The notes beneath the pieces are model-generated. The model saw only the letters and a list, made by a program, of their open reading frames with translations, did no database searches and was not told the DNA's origin. The translations under genes and the position numbers were made by a program. Of a DNA stretch of 37,848 nt, positions 5,988-27,276 are shown piece after piece. This DNA is from a virus. The stretch covers positions 1 through 37,848 of IMG/VR virus record IMGVR_UViG_3300013126_000094. One strand, 5' to 3'. Each line of letters begins with the position of its first letter. Within the stretch, counting starts at the first letter, position 1.

Positions 5988-8900
5988 ATGGCTGGAAATA
6001 TAGGTGATGTACAGTTAAATTTGACAGCGAATACATCTCAATTAGAGAGAGATGTAGCATCAGCCTTAAAGCGACTAGAAAGTAAAGGATTTAATCTTGG
6101 CTCTGGAATTAATGCTAGAGCTTTTACTCAGCCACTTGGAAGAATAACTGGAGCAGCTAATGAATTTCAAAAATCGTTAGACGCATCTAATGCTCGTGTT
6201 ATTGCATTCGGTGCTTCTGCTGGAGCAATATACAATGTACAAAGAGCTTTTACAGCACTTATTGGTAGCACAATAGAAGTACAAAAATCATTAACAGATA
6301 TTAATGTAATTTTAAATGCAAGTTCAAAAACATTAGGCCAATTTGGAGATCAATTATTTGATATAGCAAAAAATAGTGGTCAAGCATTTTCTACTGTTGC
6401 TACTGCGGCAGGAGAATTAGCTCGTCAAGGTTTGACTTTAGAGCAAACATTAAAAAGAACAAGTGATGCATTAATATTAGCTCGTCTTTCTGGATTAGAT
6501 GCTGCATCTAGCGTAGAAGCCTTAACCGCTTCAATTAATTCTTTTAATAACTCGGCGCTAGATTCAACTCAAATTGTTAATAAATTAGCAAGTGTTGACG
6601 CAGCTTTCGCGGTTAGCTCTGCTGACCTTGCAGAAGCTTTAAAAAGAGTAGGTAGTTCTGCTCAAGACGTTGGAGTTAGTTTCGATGAATTATTAGCTAT
6701 TGTTGCCAGCGTTAATCAAACCACTGCGCGAGGCGGTGCAGTTATTGGAAACTCATTAAAAACAATTTTTACAAGAGTTCAAAGAACAGATGTATTAGAT
6801 CAGTTACAAGCTCTTGGTATTGCAGTTAGAGATTTAAATGGAAATACTGCTCCTGCAATACAAATCTTAACTGGCCTTGCTCAAAAATTTGATCAATTAG
6901 GAGACGCTCAAAGATCTCAAGTTGCTGAGTTGGTCGGCGGCGTCTTCCAGATTAACGTATTGAAAGCAGCGTTAGGAGATTTAAGTAGAGAATATTCTAT
7001 TTATGGAAATGCATTAAAAATATCTACAGGAGCTTCAAACGAAGCTATTAAAAGAAATGAAGAATTAAATAAAACTCTTTCAGCTTTGATTAACAGAACT
7101 GTTGCTAATCTAACTAAAGTGAGTAGTGAAATTGGAGGATTAACATTAGCTCCTGCGATAGAAAAGGTGCTTGGAAGTATTAATTTTGCTTTAGAAGGTT
7201 TTGATGTAAAAGGTGATGGCATAGGAAGTAAAATAGGTAAAGGTATTTTAGAAGGTATTGGTTCATTTATATCTGGCCCTGGACTAGCAATTCTTCTTGG
7301 TGTTTTTGCTAAAATTTTTGCTAACTTAAGTAAGTTCGTAGTAGATGCAGCTAGAGCCACTCTTGGATTGAACAAAGAAGCGCAAGTACAAGCTCAAATA
7401 CAAGAAAGAATAAATAATATTTTAGCTCAAAATCCACAACTTGTACAGAATATAGTAAATAAACAAATATCATTATTGCAAGTAGAAAAAGATATTCTTA
7501 CAGTTATTCAAGCTCAAAGTCAAGCTCGTCAACAATCAAGTGCTATTGCTGCAAATTTAGCTAAGGGTTTATCTGCTAGAGGCGTTACTGTTGAACAAGG
7601 AATGATAACTACTGGCAGAGCTAAGAGTCAAGGATTTGTTCCTAATTTTAATGCTAATAAAGAAATTATGGGAGCCATCTCTGGTGGATATATGCCAGGT
7701 CAAGTTAGATCAATGAATATTCCTAACTATGGTAGAGTAACATATAATACTGCTGAAGAAGTAAAAAGATTTCCAGGATTATCTCAACCAGGCATATTAC
7801 CTCCAGAACAAAGCGAAGCAGGTAAAAAATATAAAGAAAAATTTAAAAATAAATATGGAGTTAATCCTTATGCAAATCAAGGATTTATTCCTAATTTTGT
7901 TGGAAGACCAACGACGAAAGCTCAAACTGATCTAATGATAAAAAAAGGTTATGTAAAAGCTTCTGGAAATGAATTACAACAATATCTCAAAACAAGAGAA
8001 GGTTCTGCAGAAGGCAAACAATTAGGAGTTGTAGAACAATATGGTTCATATTGGGTTCCAGAATCAAAATATAATAAATTAGTTTTTAGCTCAAAAGCTA
8101 ATCTAGAAAGAATTGCTAAAGACCAAGGCGGAAGATATGCAAGACCATACGCTTTAGTATACCCAGGTTTTAAGGAAACCATGGCTTTTGAAACTAATGG
8201 TACTCCTAAAGGATCAAAAAATCCCATAGGTTTTTATGCAGTACCATTTCCTGGAGAATTAAAAAGTAAAAGAAATACGATGCTTGGTCCAGGCATATAT
8301 GGAAATGCAATAAACGCTTTAGTTGAATCTTCCTCAAAATTTTTAACAGGTCTCGCTGGAGTAAGTCCACAAGTTGTAAAAACAGCAGAATTTAAAAGAT
8401 ATTTAAAAAGTAACATTTCTCAAGACCAAATCGGCAGTTTAGTTGGTAACGCATTTGAAGGAGGAATTTTAGCTGCATTAAATATTGTTCCATCTGATCG
8501 TACTCGTGTTTTAGATTTAACAGCTAAAGAATTAACACAGTTAGGTAAAACTTTTAAAATTCCATATTTGGCAAACCATGCTTATACTGGAGGAGGAGAT
8601 TTTAAAAATTCTCTTTCAAGAGAAAATAGAAATAGTATGGCAGAAAAGATTATTAATAGTGGAATGGGCAAAGCATTTGGTTTTATTCCTAATTTTTCTC
8701 CATTAGATAGAGCTTTAAATACAGAAAATAAAATGGGTGGAAGAGGAGTACTTGATTACAAAGATGGAATAGGATTTTATGTAAGAGATGGTAAAACTCA
8801 ACCAAATTTTGCAGCGGTATTAAGAGACCATCCAGAAGGAATAAAAAGTGCAATTCAAAATTCAAAAATGATGCAAGGACTTACAAATAGCTCCGCTGGA

Positions 8901-11900
8901 TTTGTACCAAATTTTGCATTACCACAATCTTTAATGGCAAAATATTTTCAATACTTAGGTAAAACAGGATCATTAACTCAAGCCGTAAGACCAACTGTTG
9001 CAGCAGGTAGTTTAGGCACAGGAGCTTCTCAAGCTAATATAGCCATATTGCAAAAATCTATAGATAAAATAACTTCTGCTTTTGATAAAGGATCAATAGA
9101 TGTACAAAAAGCTACTCAATTAATTTCTAATAGAGTTCAAACATTCTCTGGTGCATCTGGTAAAGGTTTAGATAAAATCGAAAAATCAATTACTGATACT
9201 TTATCTCGTAGAGAAGGTTCTGCTGGTAAAGGATTTGTTGGTTCTTCATTTGCAAGAGCCAGAGATTTAAATGCTAGATTTGAGTCTAGTAAATTTGGCA
9301 AATTTAGCGAAGGATTACAAAATAGAGCATTGCTTGCTTCAATTGGAGCTCCTATTATAGCTCAAACAGTAAAAAATTTAGCAGGAGACCAGTCTACAAC
9401 AGGAAGAGTTCTTGGCGCTGGTGCAAGTGCGATTGGTGATGTAGCATCTTTTGCTGCAACTGGAAGTTTATTTGGTCCTATAGGTACAGCAGTTGGTGGT
9501 ACTGTTGGTGTTTTAACAGCTGGTATTAAAATATACGATGCATTTTTTGATAAAACAAATGAATTAACAAAAGGCTTTGAGAGTGCAAGAGAAAATTTAA
9601 ATCAAATGACCAGTGCTGTGCAGAATATTAATTCTGCTACAGAAGCTTTAGACAGATATGCTCAAGGTGATTTTGGCGGAGTAACAGATCCAGTAACAAG
9701 AGCTAATCTACAACAGAAAGCTGAAAATCAATTTGCAGAAGGTCTTGCAAAGCTAGATGAAGAAACTAGAAAGAAATTTTTACAGGCAAGAACAGAAGGC
9801 AGAACAGCAGATGCTCAAGCTTATTTAGGACAAGCTTTAGAAAGAGCTCAAAAGCAAGCAGCTGAAAGACAATCATTACTTAGCCTTTATGAATTAAGAA
9901 AATCTGGAGTATTTAAAACTGCTCAAAGAGAAGGTATCGAAGGCGCAGCAGCTCGTATGAGAATTCAGCAAGAAATTCAGCCTATAACTCAAGGGCTTAA
10001 TGTGCAACAATTACAAGAGATATTAGCTGCTAATAATAAAGATCAAATAGAAGCAATATTAAAGACTGCAATACCAGGAAATACAGAAGATTTTTATAAA
10101 GGATTTGCAGATTTACTTGTAACTAATAAAGCTTCATTGAACGAGCAAATTCAAATCAAACAAAAGATAGAAGAGCAAAAACAGTTATTAGCTCAACAAT
10201 TAAAAGAAGGTAAAGCTCAACCAATTACCACATTAGAAGGACTAAGAGCAAGATATACAACAGGCGTAGCACAAAAAAGTAATCTTGATTTAACTGGTGG
10301 AGTAAATTTTGGTCAAGGTGGAATATTTGAAGAACTACAGAAACAAAGACAAGAAGCTATCACAAATCCAGTAATACAAAACTTAACTGCATTAGGAGTA
10401 GAGTTTAATGATAGCGCTAAAGCTGCAGAATTAATGAATAGATTTCACGAAGAAGCTGCAAAGATTGGCGGAGAGTACAACAGAGGACTTATCAGCTTAA
10501 CAGAAGCTTCTGGTAAATTAAAATTAAAATTTGATGAAATAATGCTCAAAGAAAACGCTGGAACAATGTTCTCTAAAGAAATCGCTGATCAGAACATGTC
10601 TATACGTAGAGAGAAAATTAGATATGGGATGTCTGGTGGACTTGATCCATTTGGATCTTTTATGGATGCATTTGGAGATAATGCAAAAACAACAGCAGAT
10701 AAAATTAACATGTCCTTTGCAAATCTTGCAGAAAATATGCAAACAGGTTTTGAAGATGCATTTGGAGCTTTTGTTGATGGCACTAAAACTGCAGAAGATG
10801 CTTTTAGAGATTTTGCTTTAAATATTTCTCAACAAATTATTAAAGAACAATTTAGTATTGGACTTAGAGGCTTACTAGGAGGACTTGCTGGCGGTGGCGG
10901 ATACGGAGGAACATCTGAAAGTGGATCTGGTGGTTTACTAGGAAGTTTATTTAAAGGATTTTTTGGTGGTGGATTTGCGAAAGGTGGAAAAGTAAGAAAA
11001 TATGCTACAGGCGGATATGTTGATGGTGGAAGTGGAATCAGAGATGACGTACCAGCACTATTACAAGATGGAGAATATGTATTAAGAAAAAGCGCAGTAA
11101 ATAAATATGGTTTAGGAATGTTAAATGCTCTTAATCGAGGAGGCAGAGTTAGAGGTTATGCCGCTGGCGGATCAGTAAGAAATTTATATGCTAATACATA
11201 TGATTATTATGGTGCACAAGGAGAGTTATTAACTTCTCCATATTTACCAGAAGCATTTAAGAGAACTATAACAAGTCCAGAGGAATTAGGAAATGTTCCA
11301 GCTTTATCGGGCAGATTAAATATAGCAGATATTTTAAGTAGTAGAGCAGCTGTTAACGAAGAGAATCCAATGGTTGCGTTAAGAAATGAAAGAGCTTTAG
11401 GAATGCTTAATTATCAACAACAGGTAAGTAATTTTAAAACTGGATATAATGAACAAATGCGACAGGTTGAAGAAGCTAGGAAACAAGCTCAAGCAGAAGC
11501 AGATCGAATTAACTCAGAGAGAATGGCTGCTTACAATAGACAAAGAACAGGAACATTAATTGGTGGTTTATTAAGCGCAGGTTTAAGTGCTTTTAGTGGA
11601 TTATCTAGCGCGGGATATTTAGGTGGAGGTATGCAGGGTTTATTTGGCGGAGGAGGTGGCGGTGGAGGATTTGGAAATACTTTATTTGGTGGAATAGAAA
11701 AGATAAGTAATTCTTTCTTAAATGCATTTATGGCTGGTGGTCAAAGCGGTGGAACAATAGGGGGATTTTCTAAAGATCAAGAAAAAATGATTACTGAAAG
11801 AATTGAGAGCGCTCAAACATCTGGACTTTTATCTCGACAAGATATGTTCAATAGATATCCTCAATTTGGTCAACAAACTTTTGGTTATCCAGGCGCATCT

Positions 11901-14504
11901 TTTAGTCCAGTTTCAACAACTGGTGGATTTATGTATAATGTAGGTCTTGGAGCACCTGCTGGTTTACAAACTACATATCAATCTAATCAAGATTTTTATA
12001 GAGTACTATCTGCAAGCCCTACTCCTCCAGTTGGTAGCTCTGCTGTTACTAGAGGATTAATGACAGTTGATCAACAAAGAATGGCAGCTTTACAATATTA
12101 TTCTAATCCAAACATAAATCCTTTTGGATTTGCTAAAGGAGGATTAGTCAAAGGATATCAAATTGGCAATAGAGTAAGAGGCGCTGGATTATCACAAGCA
12201 GTTATAAATAGTATAATGAGATCAGAAGGAAAAATGGGTATTCAATCTGGCAGACAAGAATACTTCGGTTTTAGATCTGGAACAAGACAATTTAGAGAGA
12301 TTCAAATGGTTGCTCAAAGATTTGGTTTAGATAGTCCAGTCACAAGAGATTTAGTTGGACAATTATTAACAGAAAGAGCAACGAAAGCAGGAGCGTTAAA
12401 CTTTAGCGATGCAGGTGTGCAAGCTGCCGTAATGAGTATGGCGCATATGCGTGGTGAAGGTGGAGCCCAAGCTATTTTAAATTCTGTTGCTGGATTACCT
12501 ATACAGAAAAGCGCCAAGCTAACTCAATCAACTATTGATAAAATCAATATGATGGACCCTCTTGTATTTCAATCTGCATTAAAACAGAAAAGATTAGCTT
12601 ATGATAAAGCTATATATGGAGATAGAATGGATAGTGTTGTTGTTCGTGGTCAAACAAAAACAGGAAGATGGTGGGATTTGTTTGGCAAAGGCTTAACAAG
12701 AAGATACGAAATGGAACAAGAATTATTTAGTGGCTTATCTGTACCAGAATTTAAAAACTTTGCTCAGAATGTACAAACCAGCACTCAAGTAGCTGGTAAT
12801 CAAGGTCCTAGCATGGGAAATATGGCTGCAATAGCAGGTCTCGGTATATTTGGTGCCTCTAAAGCAGGATTAGGTGGTGGCTACTATGGTCCAATGACAA
12901 ATGTAATGAGAAAAATTCCTGCAGGATCAAATCTTGGTCGAGCAGCTGCGCCAACCACAGCTGTAGCAGGGTCAGGAGGAGGAGTATTTAGCTCTTTATA
13001 TCAAAGATTTGGAATTAATCAGCCTATTACTCCTGCTACTCAAGCACCAAGAGCATCTGGTATAGCCGCTGGATTATCAAGATTAGAGCCTAGACAATTA
13101 GTTAATCCTGCAGAAGCAGCAAATATATTAAATTATGCAAGAAGTGGAGCCTTACAACCACAGCCTTCTTTACTTAGCCGTTCTCTCTCTAGTTTAAAAA
13201 ATGCTGGTGCTGGAGCCGCAAGACTCTTGGGATCAGCAAGGGGATTAGTAGGCGCAGATTTACTTTTAAATCCTAGTGTTGCAGGACCAACTCCAGGATC
13301 TGGAATAGGTTATGAAATTGAGATGGGATATAGAGATGCTACTACTGGACAATTGACTCCATTAGGCAGGAGAGTTTTAAACGAAGGATCAACACCATAT
13401 GGTGGACCATTGATGATTGCTGATCCTAGATCGCCCACAGGTGATGCTATAGGATTTAGAATATATTCCCCAGCAGATTTAGGATTATCTACTGGAAAAC
13501 AAGGAAATGATTTTTACGCTTCTGTAGGAGCTAGTTTATCAAGAGGTCAAAAAGGATTAGAAAGATTTGCTCCATTTTTTGGCCCTAAGAATAATGATTA
13601 TTTTAGATTTGGAAATACTGCTCCTGCTTTCACTGGAAAATCAACTTATGGAGAATATGGATTTAAAAATTATTTATCATATTTAGGTTATGGTGGATCT
13701 AATTATGGATTGGGATTACCAACTAGAGGATTATATACTCCAAATGCATTAAGCCCATATTCTTTTGCTAGTAGATACTTTAGTGGTTTTGGTGGTTTTG
13801 GTTCATTTGGAATTCCATTTGCAAGTAGTAATTATTTTGGTACAGGAAGTAGATTAGGTATTCAACCAAATTGGGTAGCAAGAGCTACTGGTGGGCCAAT
13901 CTATGGCGGTTCCTCTTATAAAGATGATGTTCCAGCTATGCTTATGGGTGGAGAATATGTAATTAGAAAAGATGTTGTAGATAGAATGGGAGAGCCATTC
14001 TTTAATCGCCTTAATCGTGGACAAATATCTGGTTTTGCAGAAGGTGGACCAGTAGGCACAGGTCTTCCATCTATTGGCACAGGAGTCGGTGGTAATCAAC
14101 AAGACAATTCTAAAACTCAATTTGTAGAAGCTTTATCTAAATTGCTTAAAGGATTAGAACAATTGAATCGAACTGTAGAAGAGCAAACTAGAGAGATGAA
14201 AGACAAAACTGAAACTGAAGTTTCTCGTACAGAAGGAGAAAGTGCTGGAGGTGGCGTAACTAATAATATTAACATTAATGTAAGCGTAGATCAGAATGGC
14301 CAAACCACAGAAAATAGTAAACAAGAAAGTCAAGACCAAGGTGGAGATGACATGTCTGATCAAGAAAAATTCAAGAAGACACTAGAGAGATCAAGAGTAC
14401 TCGCAGAATTACTTAGACAGCAGATATTAAAGGTACTTGTAGAAGAACAGCGTCCAGGCGGAGTACTCTATCAAGGGTCTAAGGGTCGTGATCTAGGGCG
14501 TTAA
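5988..14504 (+). CDS. Tail tape measure protein with embedded enzyme-like domains (2838 aa)
   Basis: A very long protein that would fill the tail tube and set its length. Residues about 1-360 match the TP901-type tape measure core (LTANTSQLERDV, then KSLTDINVILN, ARQGLTLEQTLKRT, TARGGAVIGNSLKTIFTRVQ). Four GF[IV]PNF hexapeptides occur at residues 549, 632, 898 and 971. Between the second and third is a possible PD-(D/E)xK-like region (G820-N-A-F-E824, D843, D871-F-K873). Hydrophobic Gly-rich stretches occur near 420-450 and 1160-1200. Two copies of the DDVPA...GEYV[IL]RK motif common in tape measure C-terminal regions begin at residues 1686 and 2646. Residues about 2065-2190 resemble a lysozyme-like domain (R-S-E2080-G). 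The Gly-rich run near 1885 looks like a linker. The C-terminus is coiled coil followed by a basic tail. The stop overlaps the convergent gene in a TTAA palindrome. Confidence 0.93.
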   Translation: MAGNIGDVQLNLTANTSQLERDVASALKRLESKGFNLGSGINARAFTQPLGRITGAANEFQKSLDASNARVIAFGASAGAIYNVQRAFTALIGSTIEVQKSLTDINVILNASSKTLGQFGDQLFDIAKNSGQAFSTVATAAGELARQGLTLEQTLKRTSDALILARLSGLDAASSVEALTASINSFNNSALDSTQIVNKLASVDAAFAVSSADLAEALKRVGSSAQDVGVSFDELLAIVASVNQTTARGGAVIGNSLKTIFTRVQRTDVLDQLQALGIAVRDLNGNTAPAIQILTGLAQKFDQLGDAQRSQVAELVGGVFQINVLKAALGDLSREYSIYGNALKISTGASNEAIKRNEELNKTLSALINRTVANLTKVSSEIGGLTLAPAIEKVLGSINFALEGFDVKGDGIGSKIGKGILEGIGSFISGPGLAILLGVFAKIFANLSKFVVDAARATLGLNKEAQVQAQIQERINNILAQNPQLVQNIVNKQISLLQVEKDILTVIQAQSQARQQSSAIAANLAKGLSARGVTVEQGMITTGRAKSQGFVPNFNANKEIMGAISGGYMPGQVRSMNIPNYGRVTYNTAEEVKRFPGLSQPGILPPEQSEAGKKYKEKFKNKYGVNPYANQGFIPNFVGRPTTKAQTDLMIKKGYVKASGNELQQYLKTREGSAEGKQLGVVEQYGSYWVPESKYNKLVFSSKANLERIAKDQGGRYARPYALVYPGFKETMAFETNGTPKGSKNPIGFYAVPFPGELKSKRNTMLGPGIYGNAINALVESSSKFLTGLAGVSPQVVKTAEFKRYLKSNISQDQIGSLVGNAFEGGILAALNIVPSDRTRVLDLTAKELTQLGKTFKIPYLANHAYTGGGDFKNSLSRENRNSMAEKIINSGMGKAFGFIPNFSPLDRALNTENKMGGRGVLDYKDGIGFYVRDGKTQPNFAAVLRDHPEGIKSAIQNSKMMQGLTNSSAGFVPNFALPQSLMAKYFQYLGKTGSLTQAVRPTVAAGSLGTGASQANIAILQKSIDKITSAFDKGSIDVQKATQLISNRVQTFSGASGKGLDKIEKSITDTLSRREGSAGKGFVGSSFARARDLNARFESSKFGKFSEGLQNRALLASIGAPIIAQTVKNLAGDQSTTGRVLGAGASAIGDVASFAATGSLFGPIGTAVGGTVGVLTAGIKIYDAFFDKTNELTKGFESARENLNQMTSAVQNINSATEALDRYAQGDFGGVTDPVTRANLQQKAENQFAEGLAKLDEETRKKFLQARTEGRTADAQAYLGQALERAQKQAAERQSLLSLYELRKSGVFKTAQREGIEGAAARMRIQQEIQPITQGLNVQQLQEILAANNKDQIEAILKTAIPGNTEDFYKGFADLLVTNKASLNEQIQIKQKIEEQKQLLAQQLKEGKAQPITTLEGLRARYTTGVAQKSNLDLTGGVNFGQGGIFEELQKQRQEAITNPVIQNLTALGVEFNDSAKAAELMNRFHEEAAKIGGEYNRGLISLTEASGKLKLKFDEIMLKENAGTMFSKEIADQNMSIRREKIRYGMSGGLDPFGSFMDAFGDNAKTTADKINMSFANLAENMQTGFEDAFGAFVDGTKTAEDAFRDFALNISQQIIKEQFSIGLRGLLGGLAGGGGYGGTSESGSGGLLGSLFKGFFGGGFAKGGKVRKYATGGYVDGGSGIRDDVPALLQDGEYVLRKSAVNKYGLGMLNALNRGGRVRGYAAGGSVRNLYANTYDYYGAQGELLTSPYLPEAFKRTITSPEELGNVPALSGRLNIADILSSRAAVNEENPMVALRNERALGMLNYQQQVSNFKTGYNEQMRQVEEARKQAQAEADRINSERMAAYNRQRTGTLIGGLLSAGLSAFSGLSSAGYLGGGMQGLFGGGGGGGGFGNTLFGGIEKISNSFLNAFMAGGQSGGTIGGFSKDQEKMITERIESAQTSGLLSRQDMFNRYPQFGQQTFGYPGASFSPVSTTGGFMYNVGLGAPAGLQTTYQSNQDFYRVLSASPTPPVGSSAVTRGLMTVDQQRMAALQYYSNPNINPFGFAKGGLVKGYQIGNRVRGAGLSQAVINSIMRSEGKMGIQSGRQEYFGFRSGTRQFREIQMVAQRFGLDSPVTRDLVGQLLTERATKAGALNFSDAGVQAAVMSMAHMRGEGGAQAILNSVAGLPIQKSAKLTQSTIDKINMMDPLVFQSALKQKRLAYDKAIYGDRMDSVVVRGQTKTGRWWDLFGKGLTRRYEMEQELFSGLSVPEFKNFAQNVQTSTQVAGNQGPSMGNMAAIAGLGIFGASKAGLGGGYYGPMTNVMRKIPAGSNLGRAAAPTTAVAGSGGGVFSSLYQRFGINQPITPATQAPRASGIAAGLSRLEPRQLVNPAEAANILNYARSGALQPQPSLLSRSLSSLKNAGAGAARLLGSARGLVGADLLLNPSVAGPTPGSGIGYEIEMGYRDATTGQLTPLGRRVLNEGSTPYGGPLMIADPRSPTGDAIGFRIYSPADLGLSTGKQGNDFYASVGASLSRGQKGLERFAPFFGPKNNDYFRFGNTAPAFTGKSTYGEYGFKNYLSYLGYGGSNYGLGLPTRGLYTPNALSPYSFASRYFSGFGGFGSFGIPFASSNYFGTGSRLGIQPNWVARATGGPIYGGSSYKDDVPAMLMGGEYVIRKDVVDRMGEPFFNRLNRGQISGFAEGGPVGTGLPSIGTGVGGNQQDNSKTQFVEALSKLLKGLEQLNRTVEEQTREMKDKTETEVSRTEGESAGGGVTNNININVSVDQNGQTTENSKQESQDQGGDDMSDQEKFKKTLERSRVLAELLRQQILKVLVEEQRPGGVLYQGSKGRDLGR
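7632..8915 (+). repeat. Tape measure segment bounded by four GF[IV]PNF repeats
   Basis: The hexapeptide Gly-Phe-Ile/Val-Pro-Asn-Phe is encoded at 7632, 7881, 8679 and 8898. DNA copies differ (for example ggatttgttcctaatttt and ggttttattcctaatttt), so the peptide rather than the nucleotide sequence is conserved. The repeats bracket segments of about 80, 265 and 70 residues. They may act as protease or folding boundaries or as tags docking to the tube lumen; the function is not known to me. Confidence 0.7.
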
Positions 14505-17580: not shown

Positions 17581-20500
17581 TTATACATCATCTGCTAATG
17601 AATATTTTAGCTCATCATATTGAAGTGCTGTAACTTTATATCTGAACTCTTCTTGCTCTTCAATATCTAGAATTCTAAATTTTTGAGTTTTATCTATATG
17701 AGGCTCTAAATAAGCCCCAGGATAAGGTGAAAGATTACTTAAGCCTGTTACGCTTGGACTTGATCTGTAATCATATTGATCTGGATCTAACTCTAATGTC
17801 CATACAGTATTGTTTAATAACGTATGATTTTTAGTATCTAAGTTTTGCCCACCAAAATATATTTTTGTATATCCTTCATAATTTCCTCCAGTTTCTGGAA
17901 GAACAAAATTCTTAAATATATTATTATCATCGGAAGGAGTAAGAGGCTGATAATCTGAACTATAACTAATTGTCTGTATCTGTTTTCTTCTTATCAAATC
18001 CGTTGATATACCCGATACAAGACCTATGCCATCTAGATACATTGGGCTTGTAATTATTTCTCCTGTTATTAAAGCATTTCCTGTTTCTGTGCCTATCTCA
18101 ATATTTCCTGCAGGAGTTAAAACATTAAAATTACAAGATTTTATTGCATTTAAATATCCAGAGATATCTGTATATTTAATATCAAGAATAGCAAAACTTT
18201 GATTTAGCTCGTATGTTCTTCCGCCAAGAATTTTATTCTGTCTATTTTGATCTTGGATGAAGACTATATCTCCTGGTTTTAGATACATAGCAGGTAAACT
18301 AGTCTCAAAACTGACCAACTCCGATTCTAGATTTTCTGATAGTAATGTCCATTTACCGAGTCTTTCGGCTTGACCTTCGCTTGTGCAGCCAAAAGCACTA
18401 ACTTCTATTTCTCTAATACCAAATCTAATTAAGCCTTCTCTACTCTCTACGTATTTAACGGCAGGTTTATAAAAGTTTTCTTTATCATTATATCTCACTA
18501 AAGCTACATTACGTCTAACTCTTTTGCTTGTATTGCTATATGTAAATTCTCCATCTTTTACATTGCTGTTATTAAATATATAGATTGGGTCTTTTGGACG
18601 GTCTTGAGATGTAAATATAAGTCCAGCATTATAATATACTATTGCTCGGAATATACTAGCCATATCATTAACCACTTTATATGCGTCTTCTCTTGTCGAT
18701 ATAAGAACGTTACAGGTGAATCTAGGCTCTAATCCTCCTCTGCCATCACTTACAAGTTGATCGCAGTATCGACTGATCTCATATAAAGTCCACTTATCAG
18801 TTAATTTTGGATCAACATAGCGACCTAATCCATATCTTCTATTTGTTAGGATATCATAGAAACACCAAGCAGGGTTATCTGTCCAAGCTAATTTAAATGC
18901 GCCATTCCAAATACCATCATACGTTCTAGAAAATGGATTATAATTAGATGGTACTTTCACTCTTAACATTCTAATATCATAAGCTCTTTGAGGTATACTA
19001 CTGAAAAATCTTGCGTCAAATGTGGTTAAGATTCCAGCTGTTGATGGTAAAATCAAGAAGTCATTATATATTTCTGTAATTGAATCTATTGCAGATTTTA
19101 ATACAATATTTTGATCTACGCTTTCTTCATAAGTTGGTTCTACTTCGATTTCCCATCCTATTGTATTATCATTAGACTTTAAATTTAAACCTGTCCATTC
19201 AAATGTCTCAATATATGGTCCTTGATTTAATTTTCCTGCCATGGTCAAAGTAGAGTAGTCTGCTCCAGAAGGCGTTTTCACTACAGTAACTTGCATGCCT
19301 TGATTATTCGATCCTTTATCTATTCTTTTTAGATACAAATTAAATGTCATTACTTGACGATCTATTCTGCCGCTAGTAGTATTTTTAGACGCATCATCTG
19401 CAGACTCCCAGATGGTCAAATCAACAATCTGTTTAAATAAACTGATCCCTTTAATATGAAGCTTAATTCCATAAAGATCTTTATTTAAAATTGTTAAAGA
19501 CTTTTTATATGTTCTTGTATTCTTATCTTGGAAAACTCGTTTTCCAAATAATTTGCTTCCAACAACTTTTGTGCTAGTTAATCTTTTTGGTAATTTAACA
19601 TTTTCAGAAATTGTTGTATTATTTGTGGCGTTAATAGCTTTAAAGGTGGGAACATATGCACCATTCTGAGCTTTTTTCGAGTAAAATTCTTCTTCAAGAG
19701 TTAGCTTACTTAATTCATCTGTATTAATATGTCTTGGCGAAGATCGACCATTATCGAAATTCAATCTAATGAATTCAAAATTTAAACTACCGTTCTGTGG
19801 ATATGTATTATCTGCCAGAGGAATTTCATTCCAATAAATAGAACGAATCAAAGCGTCTACTCCTGCATAAGGAATTATTTTAACTCCATTTCTATATCCG
19901 ATATCTCCTTTTACAAAACCAGGATTTGGTTTAATTTCATAATCTACAATTCCTTCTATTGGACCTTCTCCTAGTACGTCTAAAATAGATATATTAGTTA
20001 AAGAAGTAATTCCTATATCTTTTGTATCTTTTAATGAGTTCGTATAACGATATCCATATTTTTCTACTTTATACTCGTCTCCAACTCTAGACACTACTGT
20101 ATGACAATTAGATGGTACATTTCCATTTGTTAATGTAAAGTTTTCATTATAGCTAATTCTGCCTTTTCTTACCCATCCTTTCGCTGTATAAATCTGACAT
20201 CCCCATTTACCACACTGAACAGTGCCTATCTTTGGGCCTCGGTATGCGCCATTATGAACATAAATATTTTCTGCAATATAATTATGTAAATTTTCTACTT
20301 CAATATTATATACTATATCAAAACCATCATGGTCCAAGTTTAAAATTTTAACTTTTTCATTATTTAAAGATATAATTTCATCTCCTACCTTTAGATCATT
20401 TAAGAATAAATAGTCGCCATTTGGAGTAAGGAATCCATGACTTTTTGTAGTTTTTAATATCGTACCATTACTTAATGTAACTTTAACTATTGGAAATAGT

Positions 20501-22887
20501 TCTTTATCGTGATCTGTAAATTCTGACACATTGCAAGAGATTAGATTAAATTGTTTATCATATCCATATACAACATCTCCTTTTTTAAAGTCCTGTATTT
20601 CTTTTGCTCCTTGTGGAGTTAAAATTTTAGTCCCTTTAGCGAAACAATTACCTTGATAAGAACATGAATATACGTCGCCTCTTTGTGGGTTATATGTACC
20701 ATAAAACATTGCAAAACCTTGATTTACATAATTAAATGAACATACATCCGCAAGTCTTACTGTAAATGTATAAGTTCTTGCGTTTTGTTTAGGAATTCCA
20801 TTTGGATACTTTAAGAGACCACTTTTGGATAATCTTGTTGTTCCGAACTGAGTCCTACATGTTGTAACTTTACCAGTTAAAAACTCTGTAGAACTTGTCC
20901 CTGTGTTTACAATAAACGCAATAGGAGTAACAGAGCTTATCGTATATAATCCCGTGGGTAATCCAGATCCAGTCTGAACACTTAAATAAATAGATTCGCC
21001 ATTAGAGAAGCCGTGATCTTCTTTTGTTATTATTGTAGCTGTTGTACTTCCTGCTGATTTCCTAAACTCTCCTTCGAATGGTCTTTCTAAAGTTCCTCCA
21101 CCAGTAAAAATAACTTGATGTTCTAAATTATCTGGACTAAAAGTTATTGAAGGAACATTTTCGGCAGGATTTGCGCTCAAGCTCGTTTTTGCGCAGGACT
21201 TTAAAATCAAATCTACATCTTGTCTAATTGGTTTTGAAGCTGGTCCGCTCCAACTTCCATCGCTTGGAGGAGCATAGCAAACATTACCTACAGCATCTAC
21301 TTGGGAAGCACTACCATAAAGAACATCATAATATCCATCAATTTTTATCCCCCATTCTTGATCTCTTCTATTATTTGCTGCAGATGGATCATTTACAGAC
21401 ATCCAAAAACATGATTCTGGATCTTCTCCTACTCCTAAATTAAATTCTATTGGTCCTACAGTCTTAACGCTTGATATCGTACCTTCAGGTTTACCGTCTT
21501 TTCTTATAGTTGGAAATTCGCTTCTATTTATTTTTTTAAATTGTATAGTTTCATCCCCTCGCGTATACATATAAAGAGATATTTTATTATGTCTGATTGT
21601 GCTGTAACTATATTTTGGCAAATTAATTTCTTCGGCTTTTACATTGCCTTGTCTGTTATTGTTATCTTCATAATCACCAAAATTAAAAGTTAATGTTACT
21701 TTACTTGATGTGCCTTTTGCATTGCTACAACTTGCGTAAGCATAAAATGTTCCAGCATGTTTTGGGGTTCCTGTTATTTGATTTTTAGAAGCATTAAAAG
21801 ATAAACCTTCTGGTAGAGATGAAATACCTAGAATTGTATGTTTGTTATTTAAACCTGCTAAAGAGTCATTAAACGCTTTACCTACTTCTCCAGGAAAAGT
21901 CTTAGCAGATATTGTTGGCAATACAGCGCTACTATTAAGATTACCATATAATAAATTTAAACTAAAATTAACTCTATTACCTGCGTCTGCATTCGGGCCA
22001 GATATTCTAAAATTTAATGATACAGTTTTAATATCTCCTCCAACCGAACTGCTTACAACGCCAGAGATAGTTTTTGTATTTTGATTATATGATAAACCTA
22101 AATTAGTCAAAATATTTAACGAGTCTGTAGTTAATCCTGCGTAGAATTGACTAGCACTAATATTAGTGGTTAATGTATAAGAGAAGCTTTGCCCTCTAAA
22201 TGCTGCAGCCGTTGGAGCGCTGGTTACATGGATTGGATCATTACCAGAGGAATCCCTACATTTAATTGTAAGACTCTTTTTTGCTACAAATGTTTCTAAT
22301 CTTCCTCCTAAGTATCTATTACCATTTAATGTAGAAACTATTATGCCTGTAAAATATCCTACATAGTTCACAGTATTTTTTATTAATGGAGTCGTTACAT
22401 CTGTTATCGCGCCAAATCTTAGTCTATCTGAAGTTCCTGTTGCCGCAAGCACCCCAAAATCTGAGTAAGAAAGAGCAGAGGGAGTTTGACTTGTCGTGAC
22501 ATTAAAAGAAAAAGGTTGGCCAATTTGAGCCGTTGTTGTAGCTGAATTTGTTATTATGGCAGGTAATAAAGTTTGTCCAGGTGTTCCAAACATTACAAGT
22601 CCTTGCGTTAAACTCCATACGAACCAAAAGCCCTGACCACGGTCAATGCCTTTAATAGAAATAGGAACTCCTTGTCTTGGCGTCAATCCAGTTGTAGAAC
22701 TACTACTAAATATAGGATTATAAGCATCAACAAGATCACTTACATCTGCTAAAGATGGATCTGAACTTAATGGTTTACCAACATCATTATAAACAGTATA
22801 TCCATCAAAAGAGATTCCATTTACTCCTCTCCATGAAAGACCTTCTATATATTTATTTGGATCACAATCTTTACATTTTTTTGCCAT
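17581..22887 (-). CDS. gpJ-like tail tip / central fibre protein with Ig-like repeats and internal Hint domain (1768 aa)
   Basis: Three parts are visible. Residues about 1-745 are an N-terminal extension starting with a CxxC (KCKDCDPNK), then about three Ig-like repeats of the He_PIG type (the clearest near 320-405, LPEGLSFNASKNQITGTP). Residues 748-879 are an intein-like Hint domain. From about residue 960 the sequence is a clear gpJ core (ISILDVLGEGPIEGIVD, then YDIRMLRVKVPSNYNPFSRTYDGIWNG and DNPAWCFYDILTNRRYGLG), which forms the tip that contacts the receptor and closes the tube. Canonical gpJ starts close to the SILDVLGEGPIEG segment, so roughly 950 N-terminal residues are extra. The start codon lies one base after the gpI stop. 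A cleaving Hint would release a nearly canonical gpJ. Confidence 0.9.
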   Translation of the reverse strand: MAKKCKDCDPNKYIEGLSWRGVNGISFDGYTVYNDVGKPLSSDPSLADVSDLVDAYNPIFSSSSTTGLTPRQGVPISIKGIDRGQGFWFVWSLTQGLVMFGTPGQTLLPAIITNSATTTAQIGQPFSFNVTTSQTPSALSYSDFGVLAATGTSDRLRFGAITDVTTPLIKNTVNYVGYFTGIIVSTLNGNRYLGGRLETFVAKKSLTIKCRDSSGNDPIHVTSAPTAAAFRGQSFSYTLTTNISASQFYAGLTTDSLNILTNLGLSYNQNTKTISGVVSSSVGGDIKTVSLNFRISGPNADAGNRVNFSLNLLYGNLNSSAVLPTISAKTFPGEVGKAFNDSLAGLNNKHTILGISSLPEGLSFNASKNQITGTPKHAGTFYAYASCSNAKGTSSKVTLTFNFGDYEDNNNRQGNVKAEEINLPKYSYSTIRHNKISLYMYTRGDETIQFKKINRSEFPTIRKDGKPEGTISSVKTVGPIEFNLGVGEDPESCFWMSVNDPSAANNRRDQEWGIKIDGYYDVLYGSASQVDAVGNVCYAPPSDGSWSGPASKPIRQDVDLILKSCAKTSLSANPAENVPSITFSPDNLEHQVIFTGGGTLERPFEGEFRKSAGSTTATIITKEDHGFSNGESIYLSVQTGSGLPTGLYTISSVTPIAFIVNTGTSSTEFLTGKVTTCRTQFGTTRLSKSGLLKYPNGIPKQNARTYTFTVRLADVCSFNYVNQGFAMFYGTYNPQRGDVYSCSYQGNCFAKGTKILTPQGAKEIQDFKKGDVVYGYDKQFNLISCNVSEFTDHDKELFPIVKVTLSNGTILKTTKSHGFLTPNGDYLFLNDLKVGDEIISLNNEKVKILNLDHDGFDIVYNIEVENLHNYIAENIYVHNGAYRGPKIGTVQCGKWGCQIYTAKGWVRKGRISYNENFTLTNGNVPSNCHTVVSRVGDEYKVEKYGYRYTNSLKDTKDIGITSLTNISILDVLGEGPIEGIVDYEIKPNPGFVKGDIGYRNGVKIIPYAGVDALIRSIYWNEIPLADNTYPQNGSLNFEFIRLNFDNGRSSPRHINTDELSKLTLEEEFYSKKAQNGAYVPTFKAINATNNTTISENVKLPKRLTSTKVVGSKLFGKRVFQDKNTRTYKKSLTILNKDLYGIKLHIKGISLFKQIVDLTIWESADDASKNTTSGRIDRQVMTFNLYLKRIDKGSNNQGMQVTVVKTPSGADYSTLTMAGKLNQGPYIETFEWTGLNLKSNDNTIGWEIEVEPTYEESVDQNIVLKSAIDSITEIYNDFLILPSTAGILTTFDARFFSSIPQRAYDIRMLRVKVPSNYNPFSRTYDGIWNGAFKLAWTDNPAWCFYDILTNRRYGLGRYVDPKLTDKWTLYEISRYCDQLVSDGRGGLEPRFTCNVLISTREDAYKVVNDMASIFRAIVYYNAGLIFTSQDRPKDPIYIFNNSNVKDGEFTYSNTSKRVRRNVALVRYNDKENFYKPAVKYVESREGLIRFGIREIEVSAFGCTSEGQAERLGKWTLLSENLESELVSFETSLPAMYLKPGDIVFIQDQNRQNKILGGRTYELNQSFAILDIKYTDISGYLNAIKSCNFNVLTPAGNIEIGTETGNALITGEIITSPMYLDGIGLVSGISTDLIRRKQIQTISYSSDYQPLTPSDDNNIFKNFVLPETGGNYEGYTKIYFGGQNLDTKNHTLLNNTVWTLELDPDQYDYRSSPSVTGLSNLSPYPGAYLEPHIDKTQKFRILDIEEQEEFRYKVTALQYDELKYSLADDV
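20251..20646 (-). other. Hint (intein-like) domain inside gpJ-like protein
   Basis: 132 residues, C748 to N879. Block A begins with the nucleophile Cys (CFAKGTKILTPQG) and continues to KKGDVVYGYD. Block B has TxxH (T-K-S-H). The terminal blocks read YNIEVENLHNYIAENIYVHN, with the block F His and the terminal His-Asn. There is no homing endonuclease. The residue after the final Asn is Gly (HNGAYRG), not Cys, Ser or Thr, so a standard trans-ester splicing step is not possible. This fits a bacterial intein-like (BIL) cleaving domain. Confidence 0.9.
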
Positions 22888-22888
22888 A

Positions 22889-24205
22889 TTAATTACTCGC
22901 TAATGAAGATTGAGATAATGAGTTGCCTTGAATATCTTGAATATCTATTGGATATCCATAATGATTAAAATAAAAGCTTTTTGTTGGATAGTTCTTTTCT
23001 GCTGCTCCTTCGCCTATTGGAGCTTTGCCATCGCTCTCATATTTATTTTCTCTAGATTGCATTCTGTACAATTGATCATAAGAGCTAAAAACTTGATGAC
23101 TTCCAATAATTAAACGCCCATATCCAATTGGAATAGGACCTCCTTCACCAACAGTATTAACAGGGCCATTGAATAGATAAGAAGGCTCTCCTCCTCCACC
23201 ATCAGGTGAAGCTTCAAAATCTGCCGATGGATTCGCTATCGCTTGTGGACTTACCATTGGGGGTGGTTTCATTAAAAGCATGGACACTCCTAATGCTACA
23301 AGACCTAAGATCGCTGGTGCTAGAGCCATAAATAGACCGCCCAGAGCTGGTCCGCCAATTGGAGCTAATATAATGCTTAAGAATATAGCAAATATGCCTT
23401 TAAAAGCTCCTCCACCACCTCCTTTACCCCCACCACCTTTTCCACCTCCTCCATTATGCACGAGTATTTCTTCTGCAATATATGTATGATAGTTTTCAAT
23501 ATGCATATTATACGTAGCGTCTTCACCATCTTCTTCAATTTTTTCTATAGGTAATACGTCTCCACTTTCATGAATTAAAACATCTCCAACTTCAAAATTT
23601 CCTAATGGCGCAAATCGATTATACTCATTCAGAAACCAATGATTTGCAGTTGCACGAATTATTTTACCACCCCATAAAGTTATCTTTAAAATTTTATTCT
23701 TTTCATGTTCAAATTTTTCTTCTATTTTAGATATATGAATTTTTTTATCTTTATCGAAAGCGAACACTTCATCTCCTTCATTTAGATCTTCTATTTTCTT
23801 TAAGCCTTTTGGGGTAGATATTTTAGTGCCAGCTGGAAAACAACCAGATGATCCTCCTCCTCCTCCACCACCACCTGCTCCTTCTAATATTGGTACAATA
23901 TCTATCGTCTTCAATTGTTTACCAAAATCCATGTACATCTCAGATTGAGCGACCAATCTAAAATGGTCTTTTTTAACATCTTTTAACTCTAAAGGCATAT
24001 CTTCTGCTTTAGGGACCCACAATGGTCTATTGTTAATTAATATTTCATATTTAGCATTTTGTTCCGCTTGATTTATAAAAAATTTAGTTAATTTTTGAGT
24101 ATTTGCTTCTATGGCTCTAAAAGCCTCTGCGACTGTAGAAACGTCTAATTCCCACTCTTCGCCAACTTCTTGGCCCAAATTACCATGTAATTTAACCTTT
24201 ACCAT
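22889..24205 (-). CDS. gpI-like tail assembly protein with internal Hint domain (438 aa)
   Basis: Residues about 1-110 match the ubiquitin-like (beta-grasp) N-domain of lambda tail assembly protein I (MVKVKLHGNLGQEVGEEWEL, then FRLVAQSEMYMDFGKQ). A Gly run (EGAGGGGGGGGSSG) leads into a Hint domain (C122-N251). A second Gly/Lys linker follows, then hydrophobic segments (about 267-315) and the usual gpI C-terminus (GEGGPIPIGYGRLIIGS). In lambda gpI helps form the tail tip but is not retained in the virion. The ATG lies inside the gpK-like gene end (14-base overlap). The Hint is placed exactly in the linker between the two gpI halves, so self-cleavage would separate the ubiquitin-like part from the hydrophobic part. 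Confidence 0.88.
   Translation of the reverse strand: MVKVKLHGNLGQEVGEEWELDVSTVAEAFRAIEANTQKLTKFFINQAEQNAKYEILINNRPLWVPKAEDMPLELKDVKKDHFRLVAQSEMYMDFGKQLKTIDIVPILEGAGGGGGGGGSSGCFPAGTKISTPKGLKKIEDLNEGDEVFAFDKDKKIHISKIEEKFEHEKNKILKITLWGGKIIRATANHWFLNEYNRFAPLGNFEVGDVLIHESGDVLPIEKIEEDGEDATYNMHIENYHTYIAEEILVHNGGGGKGGGGKGGGGGAFKGIFAIFLSIILAPIGGPALGGLFMALAPAILGLVALGVSMLLMKPPPMVSPQAIANPSADFEASPDGGGGEPSYLFNGPVNTVGEGGPIPIGYGRLIIGSHQVFSSYDQLYRMQSRENKYESDGKAPIGEGAAEKNYPTKSFYFNHYGYPIDIQDIQGNSLSQSSLASN
23453..23842 (-). other. Hint (intein-like) domain inside gpI-like protein
   Basis: 130 residues, C122 to N251. Block A is CFPAGTKISTPKG continuing to NEGDEVFAFD. Block B has T-A-N-H. The end reads YNMHIENYHTYIAEEILVHN followed by Gly. 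It lacks an endonuclease and aligns by eye along its length with the gpJ Hint domain (CF-x-x-GTKI-x-TP-x-G, GD-x-V, IAE-x-I-x-VHNG). Both flanks are Gly-rich. As in gpJ, the +1 residue is Gly, so cleavage rather than canonical splicing is expected. Confidence 0.9.
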
Positions 24206-24945: not shown

Positions 24946-27276
24946 TTAAGGGCCTTGTGGTCCTTGTTGTGATTGATACTTACCTTCGACAGAGGGAAAT
25001 CCACCGAATGGCAATATCCCTAATAATTGTTTTCCATTCCTATCTTTTGGAGAGCTTATATTGCTTTTAATAAGTTCATCATTTACTACAACTGTAGAAT
25101 TTATTACGTTAGAGAAAGATTGAAATTGATATATACCTTGCATTTCAAATGGTATAAAATTAGGATTTTGACTCCATCTTTGTCTGCATGCTTTTAAAGT
25201 TTTAGAACAAGTATCCGACTCCCAATACTCTGAATTTGGAGGAGCATTTAAAGAATCTGATAAATGATTAGTTTTGCAAACAAAATAATATTTAATTTCA
25301 TTCTTTTCTATATATACATAATTTGATCTTACATAGGATACATCTTGCCTCCAGTATCCTTTATCTATCCAATTAGAGCCTATATATGTAGTAAATAGAT
25401 TATCTGCTGCATCTGAAACTGGTGGGGCGCTTTGTAATCCAAATACTTTTTGATCTTGAGAGACAGGCATTGTACTTGCTGCGCTAGTTCCTGTAGATGG
25501 AGATATAACACCAACTACATCTCCATATACTCCAGAATGTATTGGCATTAGTCTATCAAATCTTTCATAAACACATCCTTCTCCTCTATAAGTAAATGGG
25601 CAGTTTTTAGATAAAAGTATTCTTCCTGGCAATTTAATTCCCTCTATATCTAGTAGAGAAGCTAGTTCATAAACAACATTGCTAGAGTCTTCTTGAATTT
25701 TTCTGTCTATATAATAAATATCTGGCGTCAACTCCACTTCATAAGTTTCTACATTCTTAGATAAAGAATCTGTTATAACTTCTCTTGCTAGATTATGATA
25801 AGCTGTATACATTTGAGGAATTCCTGTTGGAAGTAAATCTGAAGCCATATAGTCTGTAACAATTAAATGAATATTTTGTGTCTGTAGTTGAGAGTTGTCT
25901 CCTGTATGAGCAGCAACAAATGTACATCCAGTAGCAGTAATATTTTTTATATGTTGATTATAAATAAATCCTGCATTTCCCCATGTATTAAATAAAATTT
26001 TTGGAGTATAATCAAAATTTCTTGGAAAGGTTATATTATATTCTCCAGAAGTCGCTGTGCCAAAATTATGAGAGATTTTTGCTACAAAGAAATTTGTATC
26101 TTCATTAACGTATGGATTGGTGCCTGTGTACATTCCTGTTGGAATTGTTAAGTAATTAATTTCAAAAGAGCCATCGATATTTTTTGAGTAATTTATAGTA
26201 AAACTTGATGTTGTTTGATTTGAAATAGAATAATTAAATTTTGCTGCATTTGTCTCTGATAATGGCCTAAAGGATACAAAGGTAGCAAGCTCATTTGCTG
26301 TAGCAGCATTAATTGTAAAAGGATAAGTTATTGTTGAATTTGCAGAATTAGATAGTGTTACAGAACTAGAACTACAAACTGGCTTTATCAAACTTCCATC
26401 TGTTGTTTTTCTGTATTCTTTTTCTGGATCATTGATCGCAAATGTATAATTTGTAGAAGACGCTGGGAATATAAAAATATCACTTGAGAATGAATCTGTA
26501 ACATCTTCTGAATAGGTTATTGCTTCATTTATAAATAGATTAAATATATCTAGAGATTCTAAAGAATAATTATAAGCTTGTAATTTAATATCTAAAGTTT
26601 TTAGTCTATCGTCAGTTCTAAAAGACATAAATACTTTATTGTTAAGGCTACTTCTTTTAAAGAAATAAACAAGCCATTTCGAGAAATCTATTGGCGCTCT
26701 CTCTAAAGATCTTATAGTAAGAACTTCTCCATCTCTAGAAGCCCATGGAGTATCTGTAAAAGTATTAAAAGGATTTATTTTACCAGGAAAATTATCTGGA
26801 CTTAAATATCTAATAAAAGTTTTTCTTCTTGTTACTTTAGATCCTACAATATCTTTTAATTCATTTATTTGCATTCGAATATATTTATAAAACGAATTGA
26901 ATTCATCATCTAAGAACTGACTGGAAAATTTTACTTTAGGTGTTGGGATTGTGCCATTTGATGTTATATCAAATTGTTCACCATATACTGGAAATGGGTA
27001 ATAAAAATTATCTCTCCATTTTATAACTCCTCGATTTATATTAAATAAATTAAAATCATTATGGATTCTTATCACTCCATCTTTCACTGGGCCATTTCTG
27101 CTGGGATAAGAAATCGTTGCAGGTTTCATTTCATTAAGATCTATTTCAAATAAAAATATTGGCGTTGTTGGTTCTATCTCATGTATATGAGTATTAATAG
27201 ACCTCTGCGCTTCAAGAGCCTTTAAAAAATATTCGCTTGGCTGAACTATCAAATTTGGATTTGGACCCATTCCCAT
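24946..27276 (-). CDS. gpL-like minor tail protein, Fe-S cluster type, with two inserted domains (776 aa)
   Basis: The N-terminal part has gpL features (RRKTFIRYLSPDNFPGKINPF; DIKLQAYNYSLESL). The C-terminal part has the four-Cys signature: C559-PFTYRGEG-C568 and C690-SKTLKA-C697, followed by LPFGGFP. The C-x8-C and C-x6-C spacings match what I recall of the lambda gpL Fe-S ligands. Lambda gpL is only about 230 residues. The extra length is a beta-sandwich insertion at about 301-476 and a second one between the Cys pairs, with an aromatic-rich module at about 636-686. The start ATG has AAGG nine bases upstream, and the protein begins MGMGP like its upstream neighbour. It should form a ring at the tail tip under gpM. 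The C-terminus ends in a short Gln/Gly/Pro tail. Confidence 0.88.
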   Translation of the reverse strand: MGMGPNPNLIVQPSEYFLKALEAQRSINTHIHEIEPTTPIFLFEIDLNEMKPATISYPSRNGPVKDGVIRIHNDFNLFNINRGVIKWRDNFYYPFPVYGEQFDITSNGTIPTPKVKFSSQFLDDEFNSFYKYIRMQINELKDIVGSKVTRRKTFIRYLSPDNFPGKINPFNTFTDTPWASRDGEVLTIRSLERAPIDFSKWLVYFFKRSSLNNKVFMSFRTDDRLKTLDIKLQAYNYSLESLDIFNLFINEAITYSEDVTDSFSSDIFIFPASSTNYTFAINDPEKEYRKTTDGSLIKPVCSSSSVTLSNSANSTITYPFTINAATANELATFVSFRPLSETNAAKFNYSISNQTTSSFTINYSKNIDGSFEINYLTIPTGMYTGTNPYVNEDTNFFVAKISHNFGTATSGEYNITFPRNFDYTPKILFNTWGNAGFIYNQHIKNITATGCTFVAAHTGDNSQLQTQNIHLIVTDYMASDLLPTGIPQMYTAYHNLAREVITDSLSKNVETYEVELTPDIYYIDRKIQEDSSNVVYELASLLDIEGIKLPGRILLSKNCPFTYRGEGCVYERFDRLMPIHSGVYGDVVGVISPSTGTSAASTMPVSQDQKVFGLQSAPPVSDAADNLFTTYIGSNWIDKGYWRQDVSYVRSNYVYIEKNEIKYYFVCKTNHLSDSLNAPPNSEYWESDTCSKTLKACRQRWSQNPNFIPFEMQGIYQFQSFSNVINSTVVVNDELIKSNISSPKDRNGKQLLGILPFGGFPSVEGKYQSQQGPQGP

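Follow-up and report, generated by a model that had tools for sequence, protein, structure and literature searches.

The closest described system is the tail module of phage lambda, in which the genes follow the order L-K-I-J, gpI (TAPI) consists of a ubiquitin-like domain (Ubl), a Gly-rich linker and a plug, and gpK (TAPK) combines a JAMM with an NlpC/P60 domain (PMC1779556). What a ubiquitin-like domain and a deubiquitinase-like enzyme do in phage tail assembly was asked in 2006, when cleavage of the gpI Ubl by gpK was also predicted (PMC1779556). The answer for lambda is only now emerging (PMC12908700). According to a meeting report from 2025, the Ubl is cut off gpI by gpK only once gpI has bound other tip proteins (PMC12908700). 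In the lambda virion gpI is modelled at residues 135-223 only, which form the trimeric tip plug (PMC10721106).

Self-processing Hint domains have been described from other settings. Bacterial intein-like (BIL) domains are reported to have no nucleophile at position +1 and to give mainly cleaved products (PMC7664689), and those known so far are described from bacterial proteins that are not conserved, where they occupy hypervariable regions (PMC7765530). The BUBL locus is described as eukaryotic and polyubiquitin-like, with a Ubl on each side of the BIL domain and an RGG motif (PMC8616854, PMC9200820), and BIL2 of Tetrahymena BUBL1 is reported to pass the Ubl that precedes it to a lysine in an ATP-independent reaction (PMC8616854). 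Class 1 inteins carry an Asp at the block F position (PMC4031507). Inteins of phages are found in TerL, ribonucleotide reductase and dCTP deaminase (PMC3556154, PMC6293099).

The window analyzed here is the whole of a virus record of 37.8 kb (IMGVR_UViG_3300013126_000094, 37,848 nucleotides). It carries a lambda-type tail module with the order L-K-I-J on the minus strand. The features referred to below are:

22889..24205, minus strand: gene for gpI (tail assembly protein I), 438 aa (phrog_32, phrog_4554)
23879..24205, minus strand: ubiquitin-like N-domain of gpI, aa 1-109, with C-terminal IDIVPILEG (phrog_32, AF2, alignment)
23843..23878, minus strand: Gly-rich N-flank of the gpI Hint, aa 110-121 (AGGGGGGGGSSG; translation)
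23453..23842, minus strand: gpI Hint (BIL-type), C122-N251, with block B T186-x-x-H189, block F Y232-N233 and block G H250-N251
23408..23452, minus strand: Gly/Lys C-flank of the gpI Hint, aa 252-266 (GGGGKGGGGKGGGGG)
22892..23407, minus strand: C-terminal (plug) domain of gpI with a hydrophobic segment (phrog_4554; lambda plug, PMC10721106)
24192..25004, minus strand: gpK, with JAMM/JAB (E42, H93-S-H95-x7-S103-x2-D106) and NlpC/P60 (C151, H224)
17581..22887, minus strand: gpJ, 1768 aa, with N-terminal extension, second Hint and J core
20251..20646, minus strand: gpJ Hint, C748-N879 with Gly at +1, separating the N-terminal extension from the J core

An earlier note on this DNA had placed a Hint domain in the linker of gpI, reaching from C122 to N251 and followed by Gly. 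Translation and the Pfam and NCBIfam matches gave exactly these boundaries, with C122 at window position 23842 and N251 at 23453 on the minus strand. The layout it had proposed for the protein (ubiquitin-like N-domain, Gly run, Hint, Gly/Lys linker and C-domain) agreed with phrog_32, phrog_4554 and AF2. Residues 1-114 matched the phrog_32 tail assembly protein (E=3.7e-25) and the C-domain matched the tail protein family phrog_4554 (E=2e-10); a Ubl N-domain, a Gly-rich linker, a plug C-domain and the position between K and J identify the protein as gpI. Modelled alone, the Ubl reached an AF2 pLDDT of 90, and its best folds were MoaD-like TA0895, MoaD, SAMP1 and Urm1, with weak E-values of 0.015 to 0.4. 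Outside the Hint the full-length model was of low quality (mean pLDDT 52), and no inter-domain geometry was taken from it. G109 was invariant in an alignment of 43 sequences, and the Hint starts directly downstream of this conserved C-terminal Gly of the Ubl. It thus sits in the linker that lambda gpK is reported to cut.

The gpI Hint matched Pfam PT-HINT (E=2.1e-11) and NCBIfam TIGR01445 intein_Nterm (E=4.1e-9), both beyond their curated cut-offs. With a profile built from 23 Hint sequences, the BIL domain 2LWY came out top among all PDB chains (E=3e-20), with the gp41-1 intein ranking behind. In the AF2 model of gpI, from an input of 17 sequences, residues 121-250 had pLDDT values mostly above 80, and 68-78 at residues 191-220. 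In a Foldseek search with the modelled Hint, 2LWY ranked first (E 7e-12, target TM 0.85) and BIL2 of Tetrahymena BUBL1 (6Y75/6TMM) second. The catalytic set was found to be complete, with C122 in block A, T186-x-x-H189 in block B and H250-N251 at the C-terminus. Hint fold, block A Cys, TxxH and C-terminal His-Asn are those of an A-type BIL domain, as is the lack of a +1 nucleophile, position +1 being Gly in 17/17 gpI. Like a class 1 intein, the element is missing from some gpI and gpJ alleles with otherwise intact flanks. Canonical splicing is not expected, since two BIL-type features depart from class 1 inteins: +1 is Gly instead of Cys, Ser or Thr, and the Asp of block F:4 is replaced by an invariant Asn (Y232-N233). 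Judged by its sequence, the gpI Hint is probably a catalytically competent A-type BIL domain, and it is predicted that it probably excises itself at the Ubl-plug junction.

Compared to the A-type BIL 2LWY from Clostridium thermocellum, its best match in both profile and fold, the gpI Hint has the same His-Asn end, a non-nucleophilic +1 residue, the block F Asn and no endonuclease insert. Unlike known BILs it resides in a conserved phage virion-assembly protein, is fixed in the clade and has poly-Gly flanks; we nevertheless use the name BIL-type, since this difference in location concerns distribution and not fold or chemistry. The comparison with BUBL made in the earlier note holds in that BIL2 of BUBL1 is the second-best PDB fold and in that the BIL domain directly follows a Ubl; its attribution to bacteria does not, BUBL being described from the ciliate Tetrahymena (PMC8616854). 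Unlike BUBL, gpI has only one Ubl, which ends in a long run of Gly, and the domain after the Hint is the tail plug instead of a second Ubl. With phage inteins it shares the Hint fold and self-excision in phage proteins (PMC3556154, PMC6293099). These inteins are about 300-350 residues and interrupt enzymes, whereas the gpI Hint has 130 residues and, in a structural protein, separates two folded domains. The PT-HINT of polymorphic toxins is the best Pfam match (E 2e-11) and has the same HN end. It is located just before a C-terminal toxin, whereas the gpI Hint is followed by the plug of the tail. In lambda, gpI lacks a Hint, and Ubl removal is reported to be the work of gpK (PMC12908700). No report of Hint or intein domains in tail-tip proteins was found in the open-access literature; a mention in subscription journals is possible.

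Conservation was assessed in the window gpI and 16 further distinct complete orthologues from two IMG/VR scans, nearly all Hint-bearing sequences being metagenomic contigs. The window gpI was 72-78% identical to these orthologues overall and 66-82% within the Hint. A complete Hint was kept by 16/16, and the Cys, TxxH, His-Asn and +1 Gly were invariant in all 17 proteins; loss of the block A Cys and the terminal Asn in all relatives, which the earlier note had named as evidence against its proposal, is thus not the case. The median dN/dS was 0.127 for the Hint compared to 0.166 for the Ubl, 0.154 for the C-domain and 0.149 for gpK. Pairwise distances of the Hint correlated with those of the Ubl (r=0.77, Mantel 0/500); since they track those of the other domains, the Hint has been inherited together with the gpI gene. 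The gpI Hint is universally conserved in the clade under purifying selection. A frame or assembly artefact was excluded as its source, the Hint being in frame on independent contigs.

The flanks were also informative. A Lys at +5 is invariant in 17/17 gpI while a second Lys wanders from +10 to +12. The N-flank and C-flank have in-frame direct repeats of Gly codons in common (7-16 bp, 17/17 gpI), so that the Hint should be readily lost. Another 62 distinct, more distant gpI from a wider search are Hint-free, and in these the Ubl joins the plug directly or via a short linker (LEGS-MGV in L029, LEGSGGGGG-FFQ in L129). Searching genome contigs with a gpI profile gave zero relatives, and searching annotated phages with the whole gpI gave only unrelated Hint ORFs of Ruminococcus phages and one Vibrio phage gene annotated as P-loop NTPase.

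The module recurs in the Gly linkers of two tail-tip proteins, gpI and gpJ. The two Hints of the window are 39% identical over the full length (alignment score 263 vs at most 6 in 200 shuffles), in agreement with the earlier description of the gpI Hint as a second, related copy. The internal gpJ Hint was present in 9 and absent in 7 of 16 distinct relatives. Absence differs between the two sites (0/17 gpI vs 7/16 gpJ; Fisher p=0.003, the counts and the statistic being uncorrected for shared ancestry). At the very site of the Hint in the window gpJ, one relative (L004:7860-7990) has a TAG and a TAA, a Shine-Dalgarno-like AAGG and a new ATG, which cut its gpJ into two ORFs; separate chains therefore appear to be tolerated there. 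About 16 other tail modules of diverse kinds have a Hint of the same class in the short, Gly-rich N-terminal stretch of their gpJ. Hints at this place, with G, K, T or A at +1, were noted in many modules (L129-L152, L227, L269, L283, L317 and L327). Among the J ORFs listed in a J-targeted scan, 14/84 carried a Hint. In a Hint tree the gpI, the internal gpJ and most N-terminal gpJ Hints formed separate groups, with moderate support.

Filled and empty alleles could be compared for two pairs of gpJ. The filled L150 gpJ reads VPFIHGGKGG, then the Hint, then KGGGKG...ESPNNLFSTDIMFV, and the empty L254 reads VPIIHGSKGG followed by KGSPKEDPNNLFSTDIMFV; the filled L283 gpJ has MTLIIGAGVGGGGG before the Hint, and the empty L299 reads MTRIIGAGGGG. 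Leaders of the IxG[AS] type, kept ahead of divergent gpJ Hints, are native to Hint-free gpJ as well, as are Gly-Lys motifs, and in two gpJ groups (L133, L269, L283) the motif IxGAGGGG is repeated downstream of the Hint. In gpJ, Hints of the class found in gpI are not preceded by a Ubl, which shows that the module is not bound to ubiquitin-like conjugation. Hint matches were confined to gpI or gpJ in 11 virus records of 14-116 kb, and a general genome parasite was rejected on these grounds. Interdependence of the gpI and gpJ Hints (a reaction in trans) was rejected as a general rule, since all gpI have a Hint and 7/16 gpJ do not.

The gpK of the window matched Prok-JAB and NLPC_P60 (Pfam) and a desampylase model (E=4e-5), and has the JAMM motif EX(n)HSHX7SXXD and the NlpC/P60 Cys/His of TAPK. 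In the alignment the JAMM site was intact and invariant in all Hint-bearing relatives, and the Hint as a replacement of gpK was rejected for this reason. In L132, L138 and L150 the gpK-like matches were split over two ORFs, as if JAMM and NlpC/P60 were separate genes. L129 (IMGVR_UViG_3300023174_004481) has the order L-I-J and a gpI with a Ubl and without a Hint; no gpK match was found over the whole 72.5 kb record.

The activity, products, timing and role that we infer for the gpI Hint are suggested by these comparisons. A thioester between the Ubl and Cys122 would be common to release of the Ubl, splicing and conjugation; the evidence suggests release as first choice and splicing, slightly behind, as a close second. 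We tentatively favor that an active BIL Hint breaks the Ubl-plug chain and releases the Ubl. Once gpI has folded, Cys122 would attack the SSG-Cys bond and hold the Ubl as a thioester, cyclisation of Asn251 would free the GGGGK-plug domain, and the thioester would then be resolved. The outcome kept by selection in gpI would be the broken chain, a built-in counterpart of the step in which lambda gpK removes the Ubl, with autocatalytic timing of plug release in tail-tip assembly. Release is favored by the +1 Gly of the gpI Hint, by the role of the Ubl-plug junction in lambda and by the retention of the Hint in 17/17 gpI despite flanking repeats that allow clean loss, although such retention could also mean a rarely deleted, merely tolerated element. 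Only somewhat less probable is that a compact, endonuclease-free element cuts itself out and ligates the two Gly runs by the BIL route that needs no nucleophile, in which Asn cyclisation comes first and the freed oligo-Gly amine then attacks the thioester. The product would be an ordinary gpI of Ubl, Gly linker and plug, which gpK would later strip of its Ubl as reported for lambda, and the module may be largely selfish or a timer. The filled and empty gpJ alleles (L150 vs L254, L283 vs L299) fit such a traceless insertion, some gpJ Hints have Thr at +1, and the BIL of structure 2LWY reportedly ligates with no nucleophilic side chain (Aranko 2013, as cited in PMC7664689). That gpJ with divergent Hints still have their native leader ahead of the Hint is easier to reconcile with rejoining than with loss. 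The intact JAMM site speaks for gpK still receiving an attached Ubl; had the Hint already taken off the Ubl, nothing should keep this site from decaying. However, +1 in gpI is always Gly and never Cys, Ser or Thr, universal retention is odd for a traceless element between deletable repeats, and at 130 aa without a homing endonuclease domain it has no evident means of spread. In the two gpJ groups with the motif duplicated downstream of the Hint, rejoining would be unnecessary and cleavage would be tolerated.

The earlier note had proposed that the Hint activates the Ubl for transfer to a nucleophile; the evidence suggests that simpler outcomes fit gpI as well or better. By analogy with BUBL1 BIL2, the second-best structural match and reported to form a Ubl-lysine isopeptide bond (PMC8616854), the Ubl held as a thioester could be handed on to the amine of a lysine or of an N-terminus, such as the +5 Lys in cis or an amine of gpJ or gpL, with the gpK JAMM as isopeptidase. 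We consider this unlikely despite the ciliate precedent. In its favor, 17/17 gpI have a Lys at exactly +5, unlike the second Lys with its shifting position, gpK resembles a desampylase and SAMP1 is among the best Ubl folds. Gly-Lys is native in Hint-free gpJ too, however, so that the Lys may have come along with the linker; no Ubl precedes the Hints of this class in gpJ, and the gpI Ubl ends in a long Gly/Ser tail and not in the compact RGG described for BUBL (PMC9200820). The specific form in which an intein-like domain activates a phage Ubl in cis, without ATP or E1, and places it on a tail-tip lysine as an assembly tag that the gpK JAMM later removes is more doubtful still; if true, it would be a minimal virus-encoded cycle of conjugation and deconjugation built into virion assembly. 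That the gpI Hint is an inactive relic or a structural spacer would agree with the activity of tail-tip Hints being a prediction, and is very improbable given that all catalytic positions are invariant and that the dN/dS of 0.13 is the lowest among the gpI domains.

Under the favored release of the Ubl as well as under splicing, the linker that gpK reportedly cuts in lambda would, in this phage clade, contain a domain that processes itself, giving the phage a possible built-in means to break or remake the bond during assembly. The role and timing of the Ubl-plug bond become testable with point mutants in a single-chain system. With the Hints in the Gly linkers of gpI and gpJ, the hosts known for BIL-type domains come to include conserved virion-assembly proteins, and phage biology is linked with the ciliate BUBL reaction.

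Several minor observations were made on the same material. The Ruminococcus phage NatCom_28775 (L032:4694-10194) has three ORFs of 573, 296 and 574 aa within 6 kb, each with a Hint and all annotated as hypothetical. Four other records (L176, L178, L179 and L180) have single ORFs with a C-terminal tandem of two or three Hint-like matches. In the window, positions 5988-14504 encode a tape-measure-like protein of 2838 aa in which the motif G-F-[IV]-P-N-F occurs four times, and positions 24946-27276 encode a long gpL-like protein of 776 aa with an insertion that weakly resembles an H-type lectin domain (E=0.009).
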